Shown here: positions 2,005 to 23,671 of the stretch, piece by piece
Layout: every line of letters starts with the position of its first letter
Position numbering within the stretch: position 1 is the stretch's first letter
Source: Gimesia alba
Lineage (GTDB): Bacteria; Planctomycetota; Planctomycetia; Planctomycetales; Planctomycetaceae
Reading direction: 5' to 3'
Assembly (NCBI RefSeq): GCF_007744675.1
Contig: NZ_CP036269.1
Coordinates: 1,379,501-1,443,500 of the forward strand
Length of the DNA stretch: 64,000 bases
Made by a program: the position numbers and the translations under genes
The notes under the pieces: generated by a model
The model's database searches: none
The model's input: the letters and a program-made list of their open reading frames with translations, nothing else
What the model was told of the DNA's origin: nothing

Positions 2005-2393
2005 TTGCACCTCTCCAACTTTCCCAGAACATCCGGAGCCATCACCTCAATCACGTAAATCGGATCACCTTCGCAGCTCTCCTCTGTCTGAACCAAGCCG
2101 ATGTAGACATTGCCAATCGTCGCCCCTTCGCCCGGCGACAGGCGGATGTATTGCCGCTCATCTTCCTTGACAACCAGGTCGAAACCACGATTGCTTTCAA
2201 GCCGTCTCAGGTAGCCGTCCCGAATCAGCGTATTCACGGTCGGTATTGCCGACGAGTTTTTTATTACACCCATCGCCTGTGCGATCTCGTCGAGTTTTGG
2301 AACTCTGAAATTCGCCACGGTGAAGCGGCAAATGAATTCATAATACTGCTTCTGACGCTCGGTGAGTGGTCGTCGTTCAATTGCTTCCTGCAT
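2001..2393 (-). CDS. LexA-type winged-helix DNA-binding protein without peptidase domain
   Basis: 130 aa. Residues ~10-75 resemble the LexA N-terminal domain: LTERQKQYYEFICRF (compare LT.RQ..V..FI), then VPKLDEIAQAMGV, SSAIPTVNTLIRDGYL and RRLESNRG. The C-terminal half has no Ser-Lys protease motifs of LexA/CI repressors, so it should not self-cleave. Start overlaps the ParB stop (TAATG) and its stop overlaps the GroES-like start, so the three are probably co-translated. Likely a regulator inside the element. Confidence 0.7.
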   Translation of the reverse strand: MQEAIERRPLTERQKQYYEFICRFTVANFRVPKLDEIAQAMGVIKNSSAIPTVNTLIRDGYLRRLESNRGFDLVVKEDERQYIRLSPGEGATIGNVYIGLVQTEESCEGDPIYVIEVMAPDVLGKLERCK

Positions 2394-3337
2394 TACGCGG
2401 TTTCCTTTCGCCGACCCTGATTTCGAGCCTTTTTTATCAGTGTTCGGATGAATTCCGTGTAGGCTGTCATCTCGCTCGCCAGTTCCTCTGCCAGAACATC
2501 CAGGTTGTCCAGTTGCCTCTCATTGCGGTTTGACAAAATCCGCAGTATCCAGTTTTCGTCGATATCCATCAGCGGTTGTAGGTCGCCCAATGTGCGATCC
2601 ACAAAGCGAACTATAACCATCCAGTCGTCGTGAGAATCGCGGTCTTCGGGCCTTGCGATTCCCAGTTGAACCTTTGTGCTTCGAACCCGCTGGCTCAGCT
2701 GATAGGGCCGCATCGACTGACTGACGCAATCTCTCGCAACCTTGATCTGCTCACTCTTTGGTAGTGACGCGATTGCGAAGGCGTGGCTCACTCGCAGTCG
2801 TTTATCTTTCTCAGGGTGGTTCAGAAGCTTCAACACGGAGTCGGATAGCTTTTGCAACGACTGGTAATTACACACCCACGGAACCGACCTCCCGAACAAG
2901 TCGGCGATCTTTTCGATCGTCATCCCGTCTGCCCGCAGCACCTTGATCGCATCGGCGATCTCAAGCGGTGTGTGATCTGCCCGCCCGAAGTTTGAAGCAA
3001 CCGAACGGCGGTACTGATCTGCCTCGCCGGAAGTTTCGACAATCTCACATTTCAGTGTTTCAACACCGGCAAGTTTGCAAGCACGCCAGCGGCGCTCCCC
3101 GTCGACCAGTTCGAAACGATGTTGGCCGCCTTCGGGGAGAGCGATTACTATGGCCGACACCTGCTGGCCCACCACTGAGATCGCACCAGCGAGTTCCTGC
3201 AACTGCTTCGGGTCGAAGTCCTTTCGCGGTTGATTCGCGAAGGGGCGAATCTGTTCGAGAGGAATATGAATTACGCTTCCTGCGTTAATTTGAACTGTCA
3301 CTCTACTAAACCCCTGACCCTGAAATCGTGCCGACAT
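2393..3337 (-). CDS. ParB-family protein (ParB/Srx nuclease-like domain plus HTH)
   Basis: About 314 aa from the chosen ATG at 3337 (MSARFQGQ); the open frame extends to 3406. ParB motifs are clear: IPLEQIRPFANQPRKDF at the start, HRFELVDGERRWRACKLAG (the GERRxRA box, CTP-binding in ParB) and the HTH TIEKIADLFGRSVPWVCNYQ. The C-terminal ~130 residues are unrelated to chromosomal ParB dimerisation tails. ParB proteins bind parS sites in DNA segregation; phage relatives can also be transcription factors or nucleases. No ParA gene is adjacent in the window. Confidence 0.85.
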   Translation of the reverse strand: MSARFQGQGFSRVTVQINAGSVIHIPLEQIRPFANQPRKDFDPKQLQELAGAISVVGQQVSAIVIALPEGGQHRFELVDGERRWRACKLAGVETLKCEIVETSGEADQYRRSVASNFGRADHTPLEIADAIKVLRADGMTIEKIADLFGRSVPWVCNYQSLQKLSDSVLKLLNHPEKDKRLRVSHAFAIASLPKSEQIKVARDCVSQSMRPYQLSQRVRSTKVQLGIARPEDRDSHDDWMVIVRFVDRTLGDLQPLMDIDENWILRILSNRNERQLDNLDVLAEELASEMTAYTEFIRTLIKKARNQGRRKETA

Positions 3338-3566
3338 AACGGTGAGGCGAATCCCAGTGGTTGCCAACAACGTACTCAAAACTGTTTTCGCGTCGATCAT
3401 AAACAAGAAACACGCTCGTCCCCGGCGGCACTCCCTGTTGCTTAAGCTTCTTGACTATCATTTCATCAACCGCCGTTCTCTCGTCCATTGTCAATGGGTC
3501 TGCAGCACTCCACCGGCGAGGCTTGTCGTTCCCTCTGATTTCTATTGGCGGTAGATGGTAACTCAT
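3306..3566 (-). CDS. Small conserved-looking phage protein, unknown function
   Basis: 86 aa from the ATG at 3566 (MSYHLPPIEIRGND), which almost touches the upstream stop. The end overlaps the ParB start in another frame. The middle is helical (DERTAVDEMIVKKLKQQG), followed by a beta-rich part (SVFLVYDRRENSFEYVVGNH). No family recognised. Confidence 0.55.
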   Translation of the reverse strand: MSYHLPPIEIRGNDKPRRWSAADPLTMDERTAVDEMIVKKLKQQGVPPGTSVFLVYDRRENSFEYVVGNHWDSPHRYVGTISGSGV

Positions 3567-4237: not shown

Positions 4238-4477
4238 TCATCCCCCCCCTGGAATAAATGAACGCCGACCGTAGGTCTGCTTAATCGCTTTACATCGCTT
4301 CGAACAAAACCGTCCCCAGCCACGCTTGCGGTCAGCGACTCTTGCGCGAAACTCCTGCTTAATCGCTTTACATCGCTTCGAACAAAACCGTCCCCAGCCA
4401 CGCTTGCGGTCAGCGACTCTTGCGCGAAACTCCTGCTTGCATCGCTCGCACTTCACAATTACTGTCCTGCCTCTCAT
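4238..4477 (-). CDS. Small zinc-finger-like protein with internal 26-residue duplication
   Basis: 79 aa from the ATG at 4477 (MRGRTVIVKC). It begins with a CERC knuckle and then carries QEFRARVADRKRGWGRFCSK plus RCKAIK twice in a row. One copy together with the N-terminal CxxC would make a four-cysteine zinc site (CxxC...CxxxC); the second CxxxC has no CxxC partner. The duplication is perfect at DNA level (4278-4433), so it is recent. The family is probably a phage Arg/Lys-rich zinc protein; function unknown. Confidence 0.65.
   Translation of the reverse strand: MRGRTVIVKCERCKQEFRARVADRKRGWGRFCSKRCKAIKQEFRARVADRKRGWGRFCSKRCKAIKQTYGRRSFIPGGG
4278..4433. repeat. 78-bp perfect in-frame tandem duplication
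   Basis: Two identical 78-bp copies, 4278-4355 and 4356-4433, lie head to tail inside the zinc-finger gene. The unit is 26 codons, so the frame is kept. A further partial match (tgctt) follows before divergence. Confidence 0.97.
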
Positions 4478-7082: not shown

Positions 7083-7140
7083 GGTCTCACCTCTTTCGTT
7101 TGGAATTACTCGAGTCGTTTGGTTAACTCTTATGTCCTTA

Positions 7141-7193
7141 TTATAACTATCGGCATAAACGATGCAAGGGCATTATATAACTTTCGGCATAAA
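7141..7193 (-). promoter_or_regulatory. Tandem promoter/operator pair, copies 2 and 3
   Basis: Two copies lie in the same orientation about 33 bp apart: TTTATGCCGATAGTTATAA (minus strand, 7141-7159) and TTTATGCCGAAAGTTATA (7176-7193). Each contains a -10 box (TATAAT). For copy 2 a TTGCAT sits 16 bp upstream as a possible -35. The same sequence occurs at 18101-18119 and, diverged, at 1172-1190. The conserved bases outside the -10 box suggest an operator overlapping the promoter spacer. They drive leftward towards 7082. Confidence 0.7.
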
Positions 7194-7270
7194 AAATAAA
7201 AATAATCTGAATTGAGGTGCCGCCGGGCGGGGCAGGGCGAAAAGCACTGGTTTCCGTGCGATTTTACAGG

Positions 7271-7518
7271 GATTAACGCCGCTTCGAGTTGTTGTTAATC
7301 TGTGTGTGATCGACGAGAAATTAACCGCCGTTATAGTTGATGGTATTTTCTGGCCGACCAGCGAGAAAATAAGGACGGGTTCGAGTGGCTGCTAATTACT
7401 GTGCGATCGATCAGAAAATAACCAGGGTTCGATCGTCCGTTAATTTGTGTCGCATCGATCCGGGATTAAGACCAACAATGTTGGCTCTTACTCTCTGTGC
7501 GATGAGCGAGAAGTTAAA
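7271..7518 (+). repeat. Degenerate ~48-bp tandem array 1 (five units)
   Basis: Five consecutive units of 48, 48, 49, 49 and 47 bp start at 7271, 7319, 7367, 7416 and 7465, followed by a partial sixth. Each has a conserved start of type AATTAAC, a variable ~18-bp segment often containing TTCGA, a conserved TTAATnTGTGT block and a moderately conserved GATCGACGAGA end. The start and the TTAAT block are reverse complements. The array lies in a gene-free stretch (7194-7604) between a promoter pair and a hairpin with T-runs on both sides. Unit lengths are not multiples of three, so it is not one open frame. No cas gene is near. Confidence 0.85.
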
Positions 7519-7520
7519 AA

Positions 7521-7546
7521 CCCCTCTATATAGGGAGTTTTTTCAC
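7521..7546. terminator. Bidirectional hairpin terminator beside array 1
   Basis: A short stem (CCCT...AGGG) around ctatat is followed by AGTTTTTT on the plus strand and by GGGGTTTTT on the minus strand. It could end transcripts of the genes at 7605-11412 read leftward, and also a plus-strand transcript of array 1. The stem is only 4-5 bp. Confidence 0.5.
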
Positions 7547-11512: not shown

Positions 11513-11827
11513 CTATCCAGACTGACTGTCAAGCTTTCTTAGCAACGCTTTCACCTCATCAACACTGGTAACGACGCAACTGACGCCTCCCGCCCTCTGT
11601 ATCTTCTCTATTGTTGCGGTTTGCAAATCGGTTGGTTTACCGCCGGGCTTCTTGACTTCGACCCAGAGCGACTGTCCGCGATAGGTGATATGCCAGTCGG
11701 GGAGACCGGCTTGCTGAAACTTACCGCCGGCGATTTTGACCGACCAGATAGGCAGCCCTGCACGCTGTAGGGTTGTGAGGTAATCCTTAATCGCCTTGGT
11801 GACGCGACCTTCGGGTGTTAATCCCAT
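11513..11827 (-). CDS. VRR-NUC domain nuclease
   Basis: 104 aa from the ATG at 11827, nine bases after GGAG. A PD-(D/E)xK-type core is visible: AGLPDWHITYRGQSLWVEVK, where Asp precedes a strand with the E-x-K pair (VEVK), then KPTDLQTATIEKIQRAGG and CVVTSVDEVKALL. VRR-NUC proteins are small structure-specific nucleases frequent in phage replication modules. Its ribosome binding site lies within the last bases of array 2, which sits directly upstream. Confidence 0.88.
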   Translation of the reverse strand: MGLTPEGRVTKAIKDYLTTLQRAGLPIWSVKIAGGKFQQAGLPDWHITYRGQSLWVEVKKPGGKPTDLQTATIEKIQRAGGVSCVVTSVDEVKALLRKLDSQSG

Positions 11828-11828
11828 T

Positions 11829-12133
11829 GAGAAATTCTCCAATTAGCGCGGGTTATATCGCCTGTTAATTTCTCGTCGATCACACAGAAGTTACTGCCGC
11901 TTCGAGTGGCGACTAATTTCTGTGTGACATCATATAAATTAGCGGAGCCTCGAAGTCTGACTAATTTCTGCCTGATTGGCAACAAATTAACGACACCTGT
12001 ATCGACTCTTAATTTCTCACTGATCTGACAGAAATTACTGCGCGCAACAGTCACTCTTAATTTCTGTCCGCGATGTCTCTGATTAGTGACATCTATACCG
12101 TGCCTTAATCTCTCGCTGGCCGCACAGAAATTA
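11829..12133 (-). repeat. Degenerate 48-bp tandem array 2 (six units)
   Basis: On the plus strand, units begin at 11841, 11888, 11936, 11984, 12032 and 12080 (47, then five of 48 bp) with partial units at both ends. Each starts AAATTA, then 18 variable bases, then CTTAATTTCT, then ~14 partly variable bases ending ACAG. AAATTA and TAATTT are reverse complements. The consensus matches array 1 in the opposite orientation, and 23 bp are identical between the arrays (7303-7325 and the complement of 11864-11886). The minus strand stays open across it (a 16-residue peptide period), but array 1 is not open. It starts at the stop codon of the gene at 12131 and ends at the start of the VRR-NUC gene. 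Confidence 0.88.
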
Positions 12134-12409
12134 GTTGTTACTAAATTCGCAGTCCGAATTTTCATCAAAGAACAGGTTGGACTTGCAATAACAGCAGCAC
12201 TTCGGCAGAAATTCATCACTGCCGTACTGCACGAAAAACAGGTTGCCGCACCCTTCACACATGATCGGCTCCACCTTCGCTGTTTCAAAAGTGTTCTCCG
12301 AGACGCTGTTGCGTTTCAGTGTTCTTGCTTCGATCACAGTTAGCCAAGCGAGCCTCGCGATCAGCAGTCCAGCTGCGGTGATAACTGCTACGTCCCGATA
12401 AAACTCCAT
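12131..12409 (-). CDS. Small membrane protein with a zinc-ribbon-like end
   Basis: 92 aa from the ATG at 12409 behind AGAGGGG. N-terminal membrane segment (VAVITAAGLLIARLAWLTVI), then a soluble part with two Cys pairs (IMCEGCGNLFF; PKCCCYCKSN) that can bind zinc. Its last codons and stop abut array 2. Function unknown. Confidence 0.6.
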   Translation of the reverse strand: MEFYRDVAVITAAGLLIARLAWLTVIEARTLKRNSVSENTFETAKVEPIMCEGCGNLFFVQYGSDEFLPKCCCYCKSNLFFDENSDCEFSNN

Positions 12410-12425
12410 ATCGCACCCCTCTTGT

Positions 12426-12590
12426 TTAATCCGAGGGGTGCTTGTCCCCCTCTCGTTTCTCAAGCTCTTTTTGAATTTCCCCCTTCACCTCTTCGCGAGT
12501 GGCACTGCGGGCCATTGACGCAATGATATAGCCGCAGATCACTGCGAGGGTGAAACGACCAACTGAGCTTTCTGTAAACCATTCAAACAT
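12426..12590 (-). CDS. 54-aa membrane microprotein
   Basis: Starts at ATG 12590 with AAGGAACAGG upstream and stops at 12426, 17 bp before the next gene. The product begins MFEWFTESSV, has one membrane segment (GRFTLAVICGYIIASMA) and a charged helical tail (REEVKGEIQKELEKREGDK). Good ribosome binding site, composition and spacing argue that it is real. Function unknown. Confidence 0.6.
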   Translation of the reverse strand: MFEWFTESSVGRFTLAVICGYIIASMARSATREEVKGEIQKELEKREGDKHPSD

Positions 12591-18035: not shown

Positions 18036-18100
18036 GATCTCACCTTTCTGTTTGGATTAAAGACTCACCAGGGTCGTTTGAATGACCAGCTCTCGCTAGA

Positions 18101-18119
18101 TTATAACTATCGGCATAAA
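18101..18119 (-). promoter_or_regulatory. Shared prophage promoter/operator motif, copy 4
   Basis: Minus strand TTTATGCCGATAGTTATAA, identical over 19 bp to 7141-7159. The -10 box TATAAT ends it, and a TTGCTC sits 17 bp upstream as -35. Drives leftward into the gene at 17502-18035. Confidence 0.7.
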
Positions 18120-18776: not shown

Positions 18777-20486
18777 TTAGCCTGTTTGCAGAATACGCTG
18801 CTGCTTTTCTTTGAGGTAACTTAGTACGCCTTCGTTGATCTCCTGGCGTCTCTCCAGGGTTTTGTAAATTAATTCATCGATCGTGTCTCGCACTGTCAGG
18901 TGCCAGAATCGGCAAGGGCGAGTCTGACCCGGCCTACTGAGTCGAGCGGCACTCTGCTGGAAGTCATCCAGTGAGTAGCCGATGGAGTAGTACGCCGCAC
19001 AGCAAGCTCGGGTAAGGTCAATCCCAATGCCCCCCGATTGGATCTGAACCCCCATCAGGTCGATCCCTTCGGGCATCTTGGCGTCGGGGGTGAGATCTTT
19101 ACGGTCACCGCTGATTTCGCCGTACCGACGGCCTAGTTCTTGCGCGATCTCCCGAATAGCGACGAGGTCTTGTTTAAACTTACAGAACACAACAAATGGT
19201 TCGTCAGCAGGAAAGTCCTGCAGCAGTTCGAGCAGACCCTTCCGTTTCGCATCTGAGATAAATTCCCACTCAGTCGCGACCACTTCGTACTCACCACCGG
19301 GGCCGAGCACATACTCCGGGTCGAGTGGCACCATGCCAGACGTCATCTGCTGGAGCCGCAGCAGTTTCACCAGAATGTTGTCGGCACTCAGTATGTTGTC
19401 ACCAAACGACGTGACGCACTCCTGCTCGAAGATCTTATACGTCTGCATTGCCTTTTTATCGAACTCAACAGGCCGTTCGATATCAAGCACCGGCGGCAAG
19501 TCAAGGGCATCTTGCCCGACCGTGAATGTCAGCAGGCTGATCAGGTCACTCAACTCGTCGGTGTTCTTATAACCGACGATGTGATTGTCGCCGAAGTTAC
19601 CCTTAATGCCGTAGCGGTCACGAAACCGCGTCCAGCTCGTTCCAAAGACGCCACGGTCCAGGAACTTGAATTGACCAAACACACTGAGTGGATCTTTCTT
19701 GAGCGGTGTACCCGACAGGCAGAGGCGAAAATCAGAATTCATGCCAAGCTTCGCACAGTACCGACTCTGATTTGTGTTCGCGTTTGCAATCTTCTGGGAT
19801 TCATCGCAGATCGCCATGTTCCAATGAACGCCGAGGCTCCATTTTTCGAATGCCGTCCGCCACGCCGACTCGTAATTAATTACGATGATCGCGCATTTGC
19901 CGCTGCCTTCGCACTGCTTCAGAAACTGATCGGCTTCTTTCGCTTTCCGCTTCGAAGTCCAACTCTGTTTATCAAGGATCAGCGTGCGACAGGAATCGGG
20001 GACACCCCACTGCGCGAACTCACGCCGCCAGACGCCGAGCACGGCGGACGGGCACAGTACAATCACCCGTTTACACTTTTTATTGATCGCCAGTTCAACC
20101 GTTGGTTTACTCTTCCCGGTTCCCATCCACATATTAAATAGGGCTGAGTCACGATGGTACGCGAACCAATACGCCTGCCGCTGGTGCTCCCATGAATCGA
20201 GCACGCGAACGGGAGGCTGCTCACCGGTATCCTCGAACATTTCGTATCGTCGCAGAAAGCGGTGTGACAGCTCGGTGACTTCGTCGGACGCCGAGACATC
20301 GCAGGGGGAGTGCGACAGAATATTCCAGGCAGTCGCAGGAGTCGCGTCGCACGTATGGAGATTCTTCTCAGGCCACCAGCGACTGTTCGGTAGCGACTCA
20401 ATGAAGTTCTGCAGCTCGCGAGGCTTCGGTCCCGGCAATTGCAGTTTGCGCCCGTGCAGAGTGACGGGCAGGATGTATTCAGACAT
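18777..20486 (-). CDS. SNF2-family DNA helicase/translocase
   Basis: 569 aa from the ATG at 20486 (MSEYILPVTLHG), overlapping the upstream stop by 8 bp; the frame continues to 20648 but inside that gene. Motifs: NMWMGTGKSKPTVE (Walker A, ~121), VLCPSAVLGVWRREF, the DEAH-like CDESQKI, LSGTPLKKDPLSVF (motif III), VVFCKFKQDLVAI (motif IV region) and SAARLSRPGQTRPCRFWHL (motif VI). A ~100-residue N-terminal domain precedes the helicase. Phage SNF2 proteins accompany VRR-NUC and primase genes in replication modules. Confidence 0.92.
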   Translation of the reverse strand: MSEYILPVTLHGRKLQLPGPKPRELQNFIESLPNSRWWPEKNLHTCDATPATAWNILSHSPCDVSASDEVTELSHRFLRRYEMFEDTGEQPPVRVLDSWEHQRQAYWFAYHRDSALFNMWMGTGKSKPTVELAINKKCKRVIVLCPSAVLGVWRREFAQWGVPDSCRTLILDKQSWTSKRKAKEADQFLKQCEGSGKCAIIVINYESAWRTAFEKWSLGVHWNMAICDESQKIANANTNQSRYCAKLGMNSDFRLCLSGTPLKKDPLSVFGQFKFLDRGVFGTSWTRFRDRYGIKGNFGDNHIVGYKNTDELSDLISLLTFTVGQDALDLPPVLDIERPVEFDKKAMQTYKIFEQECVTSFGDNILSADNILVKLLRLQQMTSGMVPLDPEYVLGPGGEYEVVATEWEFISDAKRKGLLELLQDFPADEPFVVFCKFKQDLVAIREIAQELGRRYGEISGDRKDLTPDAKMPEGIDLMGVQIQSGGIGIDLTRACCAAYYSIGYSLDDFQQSAARLSRPGQTRPCRFWHLTVRDTIDELIYKTLERRQEINEGVLSYLKEKQQRILQTG

Positions 20487-20991
20487 TCGGCACCCCGCCC
20501 GATTCGACAGAGTAGATTGCCGTGCCGTCCTGAACTGCGTCGAGACGAAGGTGGTGCCCTTCGTGAAAAATATTAAAAGGCACGACGTCACCAAGGATTT
20601 CGATTTCAACTCGTCGTGCTTCGGGGTCTTCCTCGAAAGCATCGACAATCTGCCCAGACGTAAAGTCGAAGTCGTCCTTGATGACGTGTGCCATCATTGA
20701 CCGCTTGGCAATTTTCAAGAGTGATTCGTATCCGACCGCCATTGAATGCACGCACTCGAAGTCTTCGAGGCGTGCATTCAAGTCGGACTCACCTGTGCCG
20801 TTTGGAGCACCGGGGCCGTTTGGATTAGCAGTGTTGTATTGAATATTCTCTAGCTGAGACTTGATTCGCTCAATCTCAGTTGCGAGCCCGTCAGCAGGAT
20901 ATCCGGTATATTCCTCTTCGATTTCCCGGATCTGCTCTGGCAGTGACGGTTTCGGATTGCTTTGTATTTCAGAGTTGAGTACCGTAGACAT
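20479..20991 (-). CDS. Hypothetical phage protein upstream of SNF2 helicase
   Basis: 170 aa from the second of two ATGs, six bases after GGGAG. N-terminal helical part (PSLPEQIREIEEEYTGYPAD; LATEIERIKSQLENIQY), an Asn/Gly/Pro-rich linker (NPNGPGAPNGTGES), and a mixed C-terminal domain (EARRVEIEILGDVVPFNIF). No family recognised. Its leader (21000-21220) contains several hairpins and operator-like repeats. Confidence 0.5.
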   Translation of the reverse strand: MSTVLNSEIQSNPKPSLPEQIREIEEEYTGYPADGLATEIERIKSQLENIQYNTANPNGPGAPNGTGESDLNARLEDFECVHSMAVGYESLLKIAKRSMMAHVIKDDFDFTSGQIVDAFEEDPEARRVEIEILGDVVPFNIFHEGHHLRLDAVQDGTAIYSVESGGVPNV

Positions 20992-22111: not shown

Positions 22112-22993
22112 TCACCCAGCAACGAAGGTTGCTTCGGTTTTCATCTGTTCCGGAACCGGCATTTTAGGAACGCACGATTCCAGCAGCATCAGGGGGTCGA
22201 GATAAAAATCCAGTACGCCAAGCCCGGTGCCGTGGATCATTTTCCCAGCATCAGGGTTAACACTGGTCCAAGTATTTATACTCAGCCTACGGATCTGTTG
22301 CGGAGAGACAGGGCGGCGGAGATCGACCCCGCTGCACATGCGGGCCAGTTCCCGCCGGATGCGATTGTCCGACCAGCGGGGCACGCTGAACAGCCTGTCG
22401 TCACCAGAGCCACTGACTGCGTCGATATGCCTTCCCAGCCACTCGGGGACGGGATAGATATGCTCCTTACTGGTCTTGTTTGCCATCGCGATCAGAGTGC
22501 CTTCAGCGGCATTGAAGTCAGAAGACCGCAGCTCTTTCATGTCGCCAAGTCTAAGCCCGGTCCAGTAAGAGACCGCCAGCCATGACTGCCAAAAAGCTTC
22601 TGTGCTGCAGTAGTCAAGCACCGGCCAGATTGTTCTGCTGACGTTCGTGTACATCGTATCGAGCACGTTCCAGGGCGGCACGACCGGTCTTCGCTTACGC
22701 ACTTTACCAGTGCGGATTACGGGAACTTCGCTGATCCAGCCTTTTTGTTTTGCATGACGCAGGATTGCCCGGATATTCCGCCAACTGCTTTGGAATGTCG
22801 TCGCAGCGAGCCCTGACGATTTGCACCCTTGGTAGAATTCAAGGATCGCAGCCTTGTTGATATCATCGAGGCTTGGATCGTCAGTCAGCCTTTCCCAGCG
22901 GTTACAGTGATGCAGGTAGGATTCTGCGGTTCGCGGTGCAAGCTCGACTTCAGGGTCGTTGATGTACTCCTCAGTTGCCTGTCTCAGCTTCAT
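22112..22993 (-). CDS. int: Tyrosine-family site-specific integrase
   Basis: 293 aa with GAGGTAAAG upstream. The N-terminal SAM-like core-binding domain (LAPRTAESYLHHCNRWERLT) is followed by the catalytic domain: Arg I in YWTGLRLGDMKEL, the Lys turn MANKTSKEHIYPVP, Arg II in VSPQQIRRLSINTW and the Tyr nucleophile in GVLDFYLDP. The first His of the usual HxxR box is replaced by Gln (PQQIR), and the third box reads MIHGTGLGV rather than LGHSS. It should integrate the element at the adjacent tRNA-His. Confidence 0.92.
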   Translation of the reverse strand: MKLRQATEEYINDPEVELAPRTAESYLHHCNRWERLTDDPSLDDINKAAILEFYQGCKSSGLAATTFQSSWRNIRAILRHAKQKGWISEVPVIRTGKVRKRRPVVPPWNVLDTMYTNVSRTIWPVLDYCSTEAFWQSWLAVSYWTGLRLGDMKELRSSDFNAAEGTLIAMANKTSKEHIYPVPEWLGRHIDAVSGSGDDRLFSVPRWSDNRIRRELARMCSGVDLRRPVSPQQIRRLSINTWTSVNPDAGKMIHGTGLGVLDFYLDPLMLLESCVPKMPVPEQMKTEATFVAG

Positions 22994-23462: not shown

Positions 23463-23596
23463 GGCTGAAGCTCCCTTCGGTTTGCGTATAGAGATCGCGA
23501 GTGGTCCAAACGACCCCGGTGAGGGGGGCATTCGAGGGCCTCGCGGACACCTCCCACTCGCGAAGCACTTAAATACTGTGCTGTTTGCGGTTTAGG

Positions 23597-23671
23597 GGTG
23601 AGTAACGGGATTTGAACCCGCGACCTCCGGAATCACAATCCGGCGCTCTAACCAACTGAGCTATACCCACC
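23597..23671 (-). tRNA. tRNA-His (GTG)
   Basis: The minus strand folds as a tRNA: acceptor GTGGGTA pairs with TACTCAC, the D-arm contains AGCTCAGTTGGTTAGAG, the anticodon arm has GATTGTGATTCC with anticodon GTG, and the T-arm has GGGTTCAAATCCC. A G at -1 facing C73 is encoded, the hallmark of tRNA-His. CCA is not encoded. Its 3' end faces the prophage, so it is the likely attB. Confidence 0.97.

Follow-up and report, generated by a model that had tools for sequence, protein, structure and literature searches.

The region from 11829 to 12137 of the window (the 64,000-nucleotide stretch of the Gimesia alba genome analyzed here) contains an array, array 2, in which a half-site of 11 bp, CASAAAWTARY, alternates with its mirror image at distances of 22 and 26 bp, giving a 48-bp period. 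Judged from the sequence, this array and its relatives may represent a spacing-constrained scaffold of dyad sites for a putative dimeric or oligomeric DNA-binding protein, an interpretation that we hold with moderate confidence.

The 48-bp period that the initial annotation had described in this region was confirmed. The autocorrelation was 0.51-0.52 at 48, 96 and 144 bp, a level reached by none of 300 shuffles of the region (top shuffle 0.38), and a dyad-chain detector joined 12 half-sites into a single chain, as compared to two chains of three and none of four or more in its background, a shuffled 1.58-Mb source. The scored left half-sites are located at 11845L, 11893L, 11941L, 11989L, 12037L and 12133L, and the right half-sites at 11867R, 11915R, 11963R, 12011R, 12059R and 12107R. 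Same-sided neighbours are 48 bp apart, or 96 bp where a half-site is missing; the left half-site near 12085 is below the threshold. The unit phase had been given as 47, 48, 48, 48, 48, 48, of which the 48-bp steps were recovered, but no 47-bp step was seen among the scored half-sites. Each unit consists of a left half-site, an arm, a roughly palindromic centre, a second arm, a right half-site and a 12-bp linker. Since the units are inverted repeats, and the model described below matches both strands of arrays 1 and 2, the opposite orientation ascribed to array 2 relative to array 1 is not established. By reading, AAATTA is exact in four of seven left half-sites and the companion motif TAATTTCT in five of six right half-sites; the earlier wording "nearly invariant" is too strong. 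The segment between them does differ from unit to unit as proposed, but its length is 20 rather than 18 bases between the 8-mers, comprising two arms and a centre that is often TATA or TTCGA. The two ends were correctly placed at the stop codon of one gene and at the ribosome binding site of the VRR-NUC gene, where a Shine-Dalgarno-like GGAG on the minus strand falls inside the first half-site, CTAATTGGAG. The features are as follows (array features carry no strand):

11513..11827, minus strand, VRR-NUC-like nuclease gene with ATG at 11827 (open reading frame 11513-11842)
11837..11884, array 2 unit 0, degenerate left half-site CTCCAATTAG, arms, right half-site TTAATTTCT and linker (from the sequence; half-sites 11845L/11867R)
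11885..11932, array 2 unit 1, AGAAGTTA-20-TAATTTCT and 12-bp linker (autocorrelation, half-site scores)
11933..11980, array 2 unit 2 (autocorrelation, half-site scores)
11981..12028, array 2 unit 3 (46.5 bits with model R1, of which it is a training member)
12029..12076, array 2 unit 4, perfect AGAAATTA/TAATTTCT dyad
12077..12124, array 2 unit 5, left half-site below threshold, right half-site TAATCTCT
12125..12135, array 2 terminal half-site CAGAAATTAGT, which holds the TAA stop of the following gene
12131..12463, minus strand, flanking gene of 110 aa without Pfam or PHROG family, its stop inside the terminal half-site

The VRR-NUC-like reading frame matched Pfam PF08774 with E=5.3e-4 and 20.5 bits, under the cut-off of 23.8, and among the PHROG families phrog_93 (endonuclease, 1.8e-18) and phrog_5702 (Holliday junction resolvase, 1.5e-8).

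Array 2 is part of a prophage of about 61.5 kb at C1:1341634-1403143, inserted in tRNA-His in a genome of 7.77 Mb on a single contig, on which the window spans C1:1379501-1443500. The prophage encodes a terminase, portal and tail proteins, a ParB-like, a UvrD-like and a Prim-Pol protein and a ribbon-helix-helix (RHH) protein. Two further stretches of the same genome, L004 and L005, were included, of which L004 carries the other end of the prophage. The following features complete the picture:

2393-3406, ParB-like protein
7267..7517, no strand, array 1, five dyad units and a terminal half-site with a 48/49-bp period
22112..22993, minus strand, tyrosine-recombinase integrase (PF13102 5.7e-8; phrog_1 9.4e-18)
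23596-23643, identical to L004 2134-2181, no strand, attachment site in tRNA-His (23595-23670), one of the two exact 48-bp direct repeats that bound the prophage
L005 18211-18528, outside the window, array 3, one small gene away from the large terminase gene
L004 2504-2561, fourth array, three half-sites, under the chain threshold, at the other end of the prophage
L004 2552-2884, RHH gene, its last codons and stop inside a half-site of the fourth array

Model R1, built from 11 units of arrays 1 and 2, gave 22 matches at E<=0.1 in its own genome among the 150 of 1517 candidates that were scored, and these fell in four places, all within the prophage; arrays 3 and 4 were detected in this way. 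Some units appear as perfect hairpins by eye (L004 2522-2563; L005 18210-18241).

Other repeats and genes of the prophage were recorded alongside. A terminator-like hairpin was seen by eye after array 1, at about 7516-7543. A separate 20-bp repeat of the ATTATAACTATCGGCATAAA type occurs at 1171-1190, 7140-7159, 7174-7193 and 18100-18119, two copies being identical and two 85%; the copies lie upstream of minus-strand reading frames, the identical ones ending in a -10-like TATAAT on the minus strand, and they are candidate promoter or operator sites of the prophage. A 78-bp segment is present in two exact tandem copies and a partial third at 4277-4446, in a region covered by reading frames, and an SNF2-type helicase at 18777-20648 resembles the ZorD/DpdE helicase models of defence systems.

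The spacing of the half-sites was surveyed at 15 loci by recording every opposite-sided pair 10-45 bp apart. The units used to train the matrix had been chosen at start-to-start spacings of 28 or 38 bp, a requirement from which the survey itself was free. On the centre side, the spacing was 22 bp in 72 pairs, 23 bp in 4 and 31/32 bp in 14, the rest being 10 bp (3 pairs), 35, 36 and 42 bp (1 each), with none at 24-30 bp. On the linker side, it was 26 bp in 77 pairs, 27 bp in 6 and 35-38 bp in 5, with single pairs at 13 and 22 bp and none at 28-34 bp. Same-sided half-sites were mainly 48 bp (124) and 58 bp (32) apart. The array in virus record L213, which stood outside the models and the matrix and is independent of the training, displayed centre-side spacings of 22 bp (6), 23 bp (1) and 11 bp (1) and linker-side spacings of 26 bp (6) and 38 bp (1). 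It supports the 22/26 spacing but not the centre-side +10 class.

Within the half-site, positions 4, 5, 6, 8 and 9 hardly vary; G or C occupies position 3 in 98% of half-sites, and T or A occupies position 7 in 92%. Identity within a source was calculated for the nine sources that offered three or more usable units, which left out G012, L091, L139 and L186. It was 0.73-0.96 for the half-sites; both this range and the position percentages are inflated by the choice of units according to half-site score and 28/38 spacing. The arms reached 0.30-0.65 against a chance level of 0.25-0.31 (30-52% without L077), and the linkers 0.25-0.64 against 0.25-0.38 (25-45% without L077). The contrast between half-sites and spacers is large despite the selection bias: the half-sites are conserved, the arms are moderately above chance and the linkers are near chance. 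The sequence between the half-sites has diverged, and its length has been kept save for steps of about 10 bp. A selected function, for which the initial annotation had argued from two arrays, is supported by this contrast, by the lack of small indels of more than 1 bp except in the +9/+10-bp class, by the additional arrays in the prophage and by the equal geometry in other viruses.

A pattern scan of viral contigs matched at least 120 stretches, of which eight (L077, L090, L091, L126, L139, L150, L170 and L173) contained an array according to the chain detector; no chain of four or more was found in the others listed. Further scans added L188/L189, which represent one virus (99.8% identical over 4350 bp), and L213; no array was found in L214 and L215 from the scan that gave L213. 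One strict-pattern scan of bacterial genome contigs yielded three matches, in MAGs titled Gimesia, Bacteroidetes (L186) and Nitrosomonas (L187), titles that may misname the host. In total, the carriers are ten environmental virus records (L188/L189 counted once), one further Gimesia genome and two MAG contigs that bear chromosomal genes. L170 and L173 come from one metagenome. Some records are distantly related, namely L139/L173, L090/L091 and, by the terminase, L213 and the prophage. Because chromosomal genes are present on the two MAG contigs (Tex and RecQ-like genes on L186; Mur ligase, tRNA synthetase-like, oxidoreductase and other genes on L187), the array family is not strictly viral. 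The L187 array has eight units at 1871-2256, and the looser L186 array, outside the chain list, has extra half-sites and a 68-bp spacing.

Among the best 30 or 15 candidates per genome, model R2 matched one of 199 genomes of its own phylum, which was the genome itself, and one of 395 genomes of the phylum of the Bacteroidetes MAG, which was the same MAG. Outside its own genome, model R1 had a match at E<=0.1 in one of 16 genomes from the genus. The places per genome are few: four in the Gimesia alba genome (G000) and one contig each seen in G012, G156 and G157. A blastn search with four arrays against 50,697 phage records, and with two arrays against 72,556 plasmid records, gave nothing or single matches of 20-37 bases and no array, a method that is weak for units as divergent as these. 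No family, and no paper among those listed from the open-access literature on 48-bp or palindromic phage repeats, was found to match the arrays, and a search for relatives of the primase found none.

The arrays occupy intergenic gaps, now and then running into the end of a neighbouring reading frame. In L173, they lie in the gaps between terL and portal and between portal and head genes. The longest array seen, in L188 (2697-3666, about 1 kb and 28 half-sites), consists almost wholly of 48- and 58-bp units in the terS-terL gap. The L213 array, a chain of 16, lies between terS and a small gene adjoining terL, and that of L150/L212 follows a gene for a virion structural-like protein and precedes one for a head-protease-like protein, with small reading frames between. 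Other arrays are located directly upstream of a helicase gene (L170), after a glycosyltransferase gene (L091) and downstream of a DNA polymerase gene and small reading frames (L077). Several arrays fall in the packaging block, but an enrichment there is unsafe because the sampling was by short contigs.

Comparison of the proteins of the carriers, most of which are fragments, revealed no protein common to those compared (L213 was compared in a separate later run). Sharing was partial: three genes between L139 and L173, two between L090 and L091, one each between L090 and L188 and between L091 and L188, the helicases of G000, L077 and L170, and in L213 the G000 terminase and one gene of the L126 record. 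The ParB-like protein had been suggested as a partner to survey. ParB_N is present in the prophage itself and was found in none of 11 other carrier records, mostly fragments and two of them one virus; RHH_1 was found in none of 10, again mostly fragments, in which RHH domains are easy to miss. With these counts, ParB and RHH proteins were rejected as general partners of the array. Several protein matches between carriers turned out to be translated arrays, which can match as proteins because the 48-bp period is divisible by 3; a peptide-coding reading was rejected, and the 58-bp units break the reading frame.

The main alternative, which we regard as possible although not favoured, is an extragenic palindromic repeat of a mobile or selfish kind (REP/BIME- or MITE-like), which would pass between phages and chromosomes, grow by unequal exchange and keep its half-sites because a mobilising enzyme needs them. 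Such an element would be consistent with the scattered occurrence across diverse viruses and the MAG contigs with the titles Gimesia, Bacteroidetes and Nitrosomonas, and with the re-use of arms in new combinations and inverted, seen chiefly in L077 and also in L170. It would also agree with the differing positions in two syntenic phages: the head, portal and terL genes of L139 are syntenic with those of L173, but in L139 the head gene directly adjoins the portal gene, the portal-terL interval is free of arrays, and a short array sits elsewhere. However, decaying copies would not be expected to keep half-sites and spacing while the spacers diverge, the arrays occupy few places per genome as compared to the many copies of REP elements, and no gene is common to the carriers compared.

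If the arrays were instead transcribed into tandem RNA hairpins with a role in the stability, processing or regulation of polycistronic mRNA, paired positions should depend on each other. In 70 units, of which 67 were informative at each position, the degenerate positions 3 and 7 showed no association with those of the partner half-site (Fisher p=0.58 and 1.0), and there was none across 39 linkers, of which 36 and 38 were informative (p=0.25 and 0.41). This speaks against an RNA hairpin, in which a G at position 3 would need a C as its partner. In alignment A2, the named pairs formed in 69.8% of cells, as compared to 68.1% in shuffles (14 of 500 as high), both-side changes amounted to 83 cells against 64.7 (7 of 500) and the covariation score was 0.190 against 0.155 (3 of 500); pair types were not raised (128 of 500), the four other measures ranging from 3 to 35 of 500. 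This small excess could be explained by kinship of the units or by quasi-palindrome template switching. The array 2 strand folded more favourably than its shuffles (z=-3.27, equalled by none of 100), a score that is not diagnostic because any inverted repeat yields one. Several arrays do lie between co-directional genes and some units are perfect hairpins, but with partner-independent degeneracy, a small pairing gain and no Rfam match other than tRNA in the window, L004 and L005, RNA hairpins were rejected as the main reading and we consider them unlikely. Based on the sequence patterns, the arrays are taken to act mainly as double-stranded DNA.

A transcription roadblock is similarly improbable. 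Here, a prophage repressor bound to arrays in lytic operons would halt elongation, as at stoperators, and the location of arrays between co-directional genes and in several regions of one prophage would fit. The sites are, however, symmetric, tandem and confined to few places, whereas the 13-bp core of Cluster A phages is mostly in one orientation (PMC6550527). Moreover, the prophage has its separate operator-like 20-mers, and an equal motif across phages of different hosts would need one repressor.

Promoters or promoter decoys for T7-family RNA polymerases are very unlikely. In promoters of this family, one block sets the specificity. The half unit AAATTAGTnnnnACTATAG presumably resembles SP6/K11-type promoters in its length and both conserved blocks, and the consensus and geometry of the TATA-centre units point the same way. 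Yet the specificity block varies inside one array, the two halves face each other and many units, including some in the prophage itself, are TTCGA-centred; T7-like promoters were rejected for lack of a fixed specificity block or TATA centre. PF00940 gave one sub-threshold match in the genome itself (E=0.016) and none in 10 records, a weak point, as control genomes were silent in both. LexA/SOS boxes, with the consensus CTGT-N8-ACAG, were rejected in the linker dyads, the consensus occurring four times in 18 array stretches.

A functional link between the array and the VRR-NUC nuclease, in which the array would serve for example as its target or guide, is hardly credible: the adjacency that favours it is limited to array 2, and arrays elsewhere adjoin terminase, portal, head, helicase, glycosyltransferase and chromosomal genes. 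The nuclease link raised in the initial annotation is unsupported: the gene turned up in records with no array, and arrays in records with no such gene, although the records may be incomplete. This is largely the outcome for which the initial annotation had said that the link would fall. The VRR-NUC protein had no match at E<=0.01 among the reading frames of other carriers (best E 0.2 or worse), and two viral relatives of it (41-44% identical) had no array by R2 at E<=0.1 in records of 47.7 and 43.5 kb that are possibly incomplete. The gene was found in one of 150 genomes of the family, which is the genome itself, so that no close relative was available for comparison. Because similar arrays occur in further viruses, most of them unrelated, and in a small number of bacteria, the VRR-NUC gene is probably a bystander of array 2.

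Returning to the scaffold of dyad sites, this interpretation is favoured by the geometry, the conservation of the half-sites, the spacing classes, the partner-independent degeneracy, the mostly intergenic location and the recurrence in other viruses, as well as by the confinement of R1 matches to the prophage and the end of the RHH gene within the fourth array. A candidate dimeric or oligomeric protein would assemble on half-sites separated by 22 bp over the centre and by 26 bp over the linker, sometimes with an additional 9-10 bp. The putative binder may read positions 3 (G/C) and 7 (A/T) partly via the minor groove, a readout that would leave the S/W degeneracy observed there. As the array occupies an intergenic gap, the nucleoprotein patch would form inside an operon with the reading frames intact. 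Several arrays in one genome might act jointly, either as an address resembling a centromere or scaffold or as a roadblock. Candidate binders in the prophage are the RHH protein that ends in the fourth array and the ParB-like protein at 2393-3406. Against the scaffold stand the lack of a binder common to the carriers (ParB_N 0/11, RHH_1 0/10, mostly fragments), the absence of the +9/+10 class from the centre side of L213, arms somewhat above chance, the slightly raised pairing measures in A2 and the perfect hairpins. Binding sites within operons, such as in the terS-terL gap, are unusual, the arrays on two MAG contigs with chromosomal genes make the element not purely viral, an integrated prophage needs no partition in that state, and, with 10.5 bp to a turn, a 48-bp period does not correspond to an integral number of turns.

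More tentatively, the arrays could represent a common DNA address system across diverse phages and some bacterial chromosomes, in at least three phyla by MAG titles, with runs of CASAAAWTARY at helically stepped spacing in the gaps of packaging, replication and other operons. Its reader might be a broadly conserved host protein or a fast-evolving viral factor unrecognised by sequence. If so, the arrays would form an apparently undescribed class of cis-acting DNA, with a geometry common to viruses in which no common gene was found. This would imply a common reader, host-encoded or viral, that could be retrieved by using the array as bait. The tempting connection with the nuclease would be corrected as well, and a simple sequence rule for finding further phage arrays would be gained.

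Among known systems, iterons are direct repeats near one initiator gene, and the P4 origin has two sites. Like iteron origins, the arrays appear to be repeated protein-binding sites, which in the prophage lie near replication genes (Prim-Pol, helicases), but their half-sites are inverted and are found at places that include the terS-terL and portal-head gaps. REP, BIME and REPIN elements are palindromic intergenic units, sometimes in arrays. The arrays described here are likewise palindromic and extragenic, but they differ by the few places per genome, the occurrence in both phages and chromosomal contigs, the strict spacing and the lack of a common gene in the carriers compared. Mycobacteriophage stoperators are asymmetric, with a 13-bp core in one prevailing orientation (PMC6550527). 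They resemble the arrays in being sites (for a repressor) within operons, at several places per phage genome, but the arrays are palindromic and tandem, and the model matches both strands. The sopC centromere of F is a run of twelve repeats of 43 bp, in each of which a ParB dimer binds a 16-bp inverted repeat (PMC9178275); another source puts the tandem copies at 10 and gives four inverted-repeat centromere sites for prophage N15 (PMC7205306). The likeness lies in tandem or dispersed inverted repeats of similar length, with a ParB-like protein and dyad sites at four places in the prophage. The sopC repeats are near-identical, whereas the arms and linkers of the arrays diverge strongly, there are two dyad classes per unit and +9/+10-bp variants, and, in contrast to these type Ia ParABS systems, the other records yielded no ParB and the prophage is in the integrated state. 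Because this defining partner was not found in other records, the arrays are not filed as a centromere of this type, but by analogy the F/N15 centromere is their closest working analogue.
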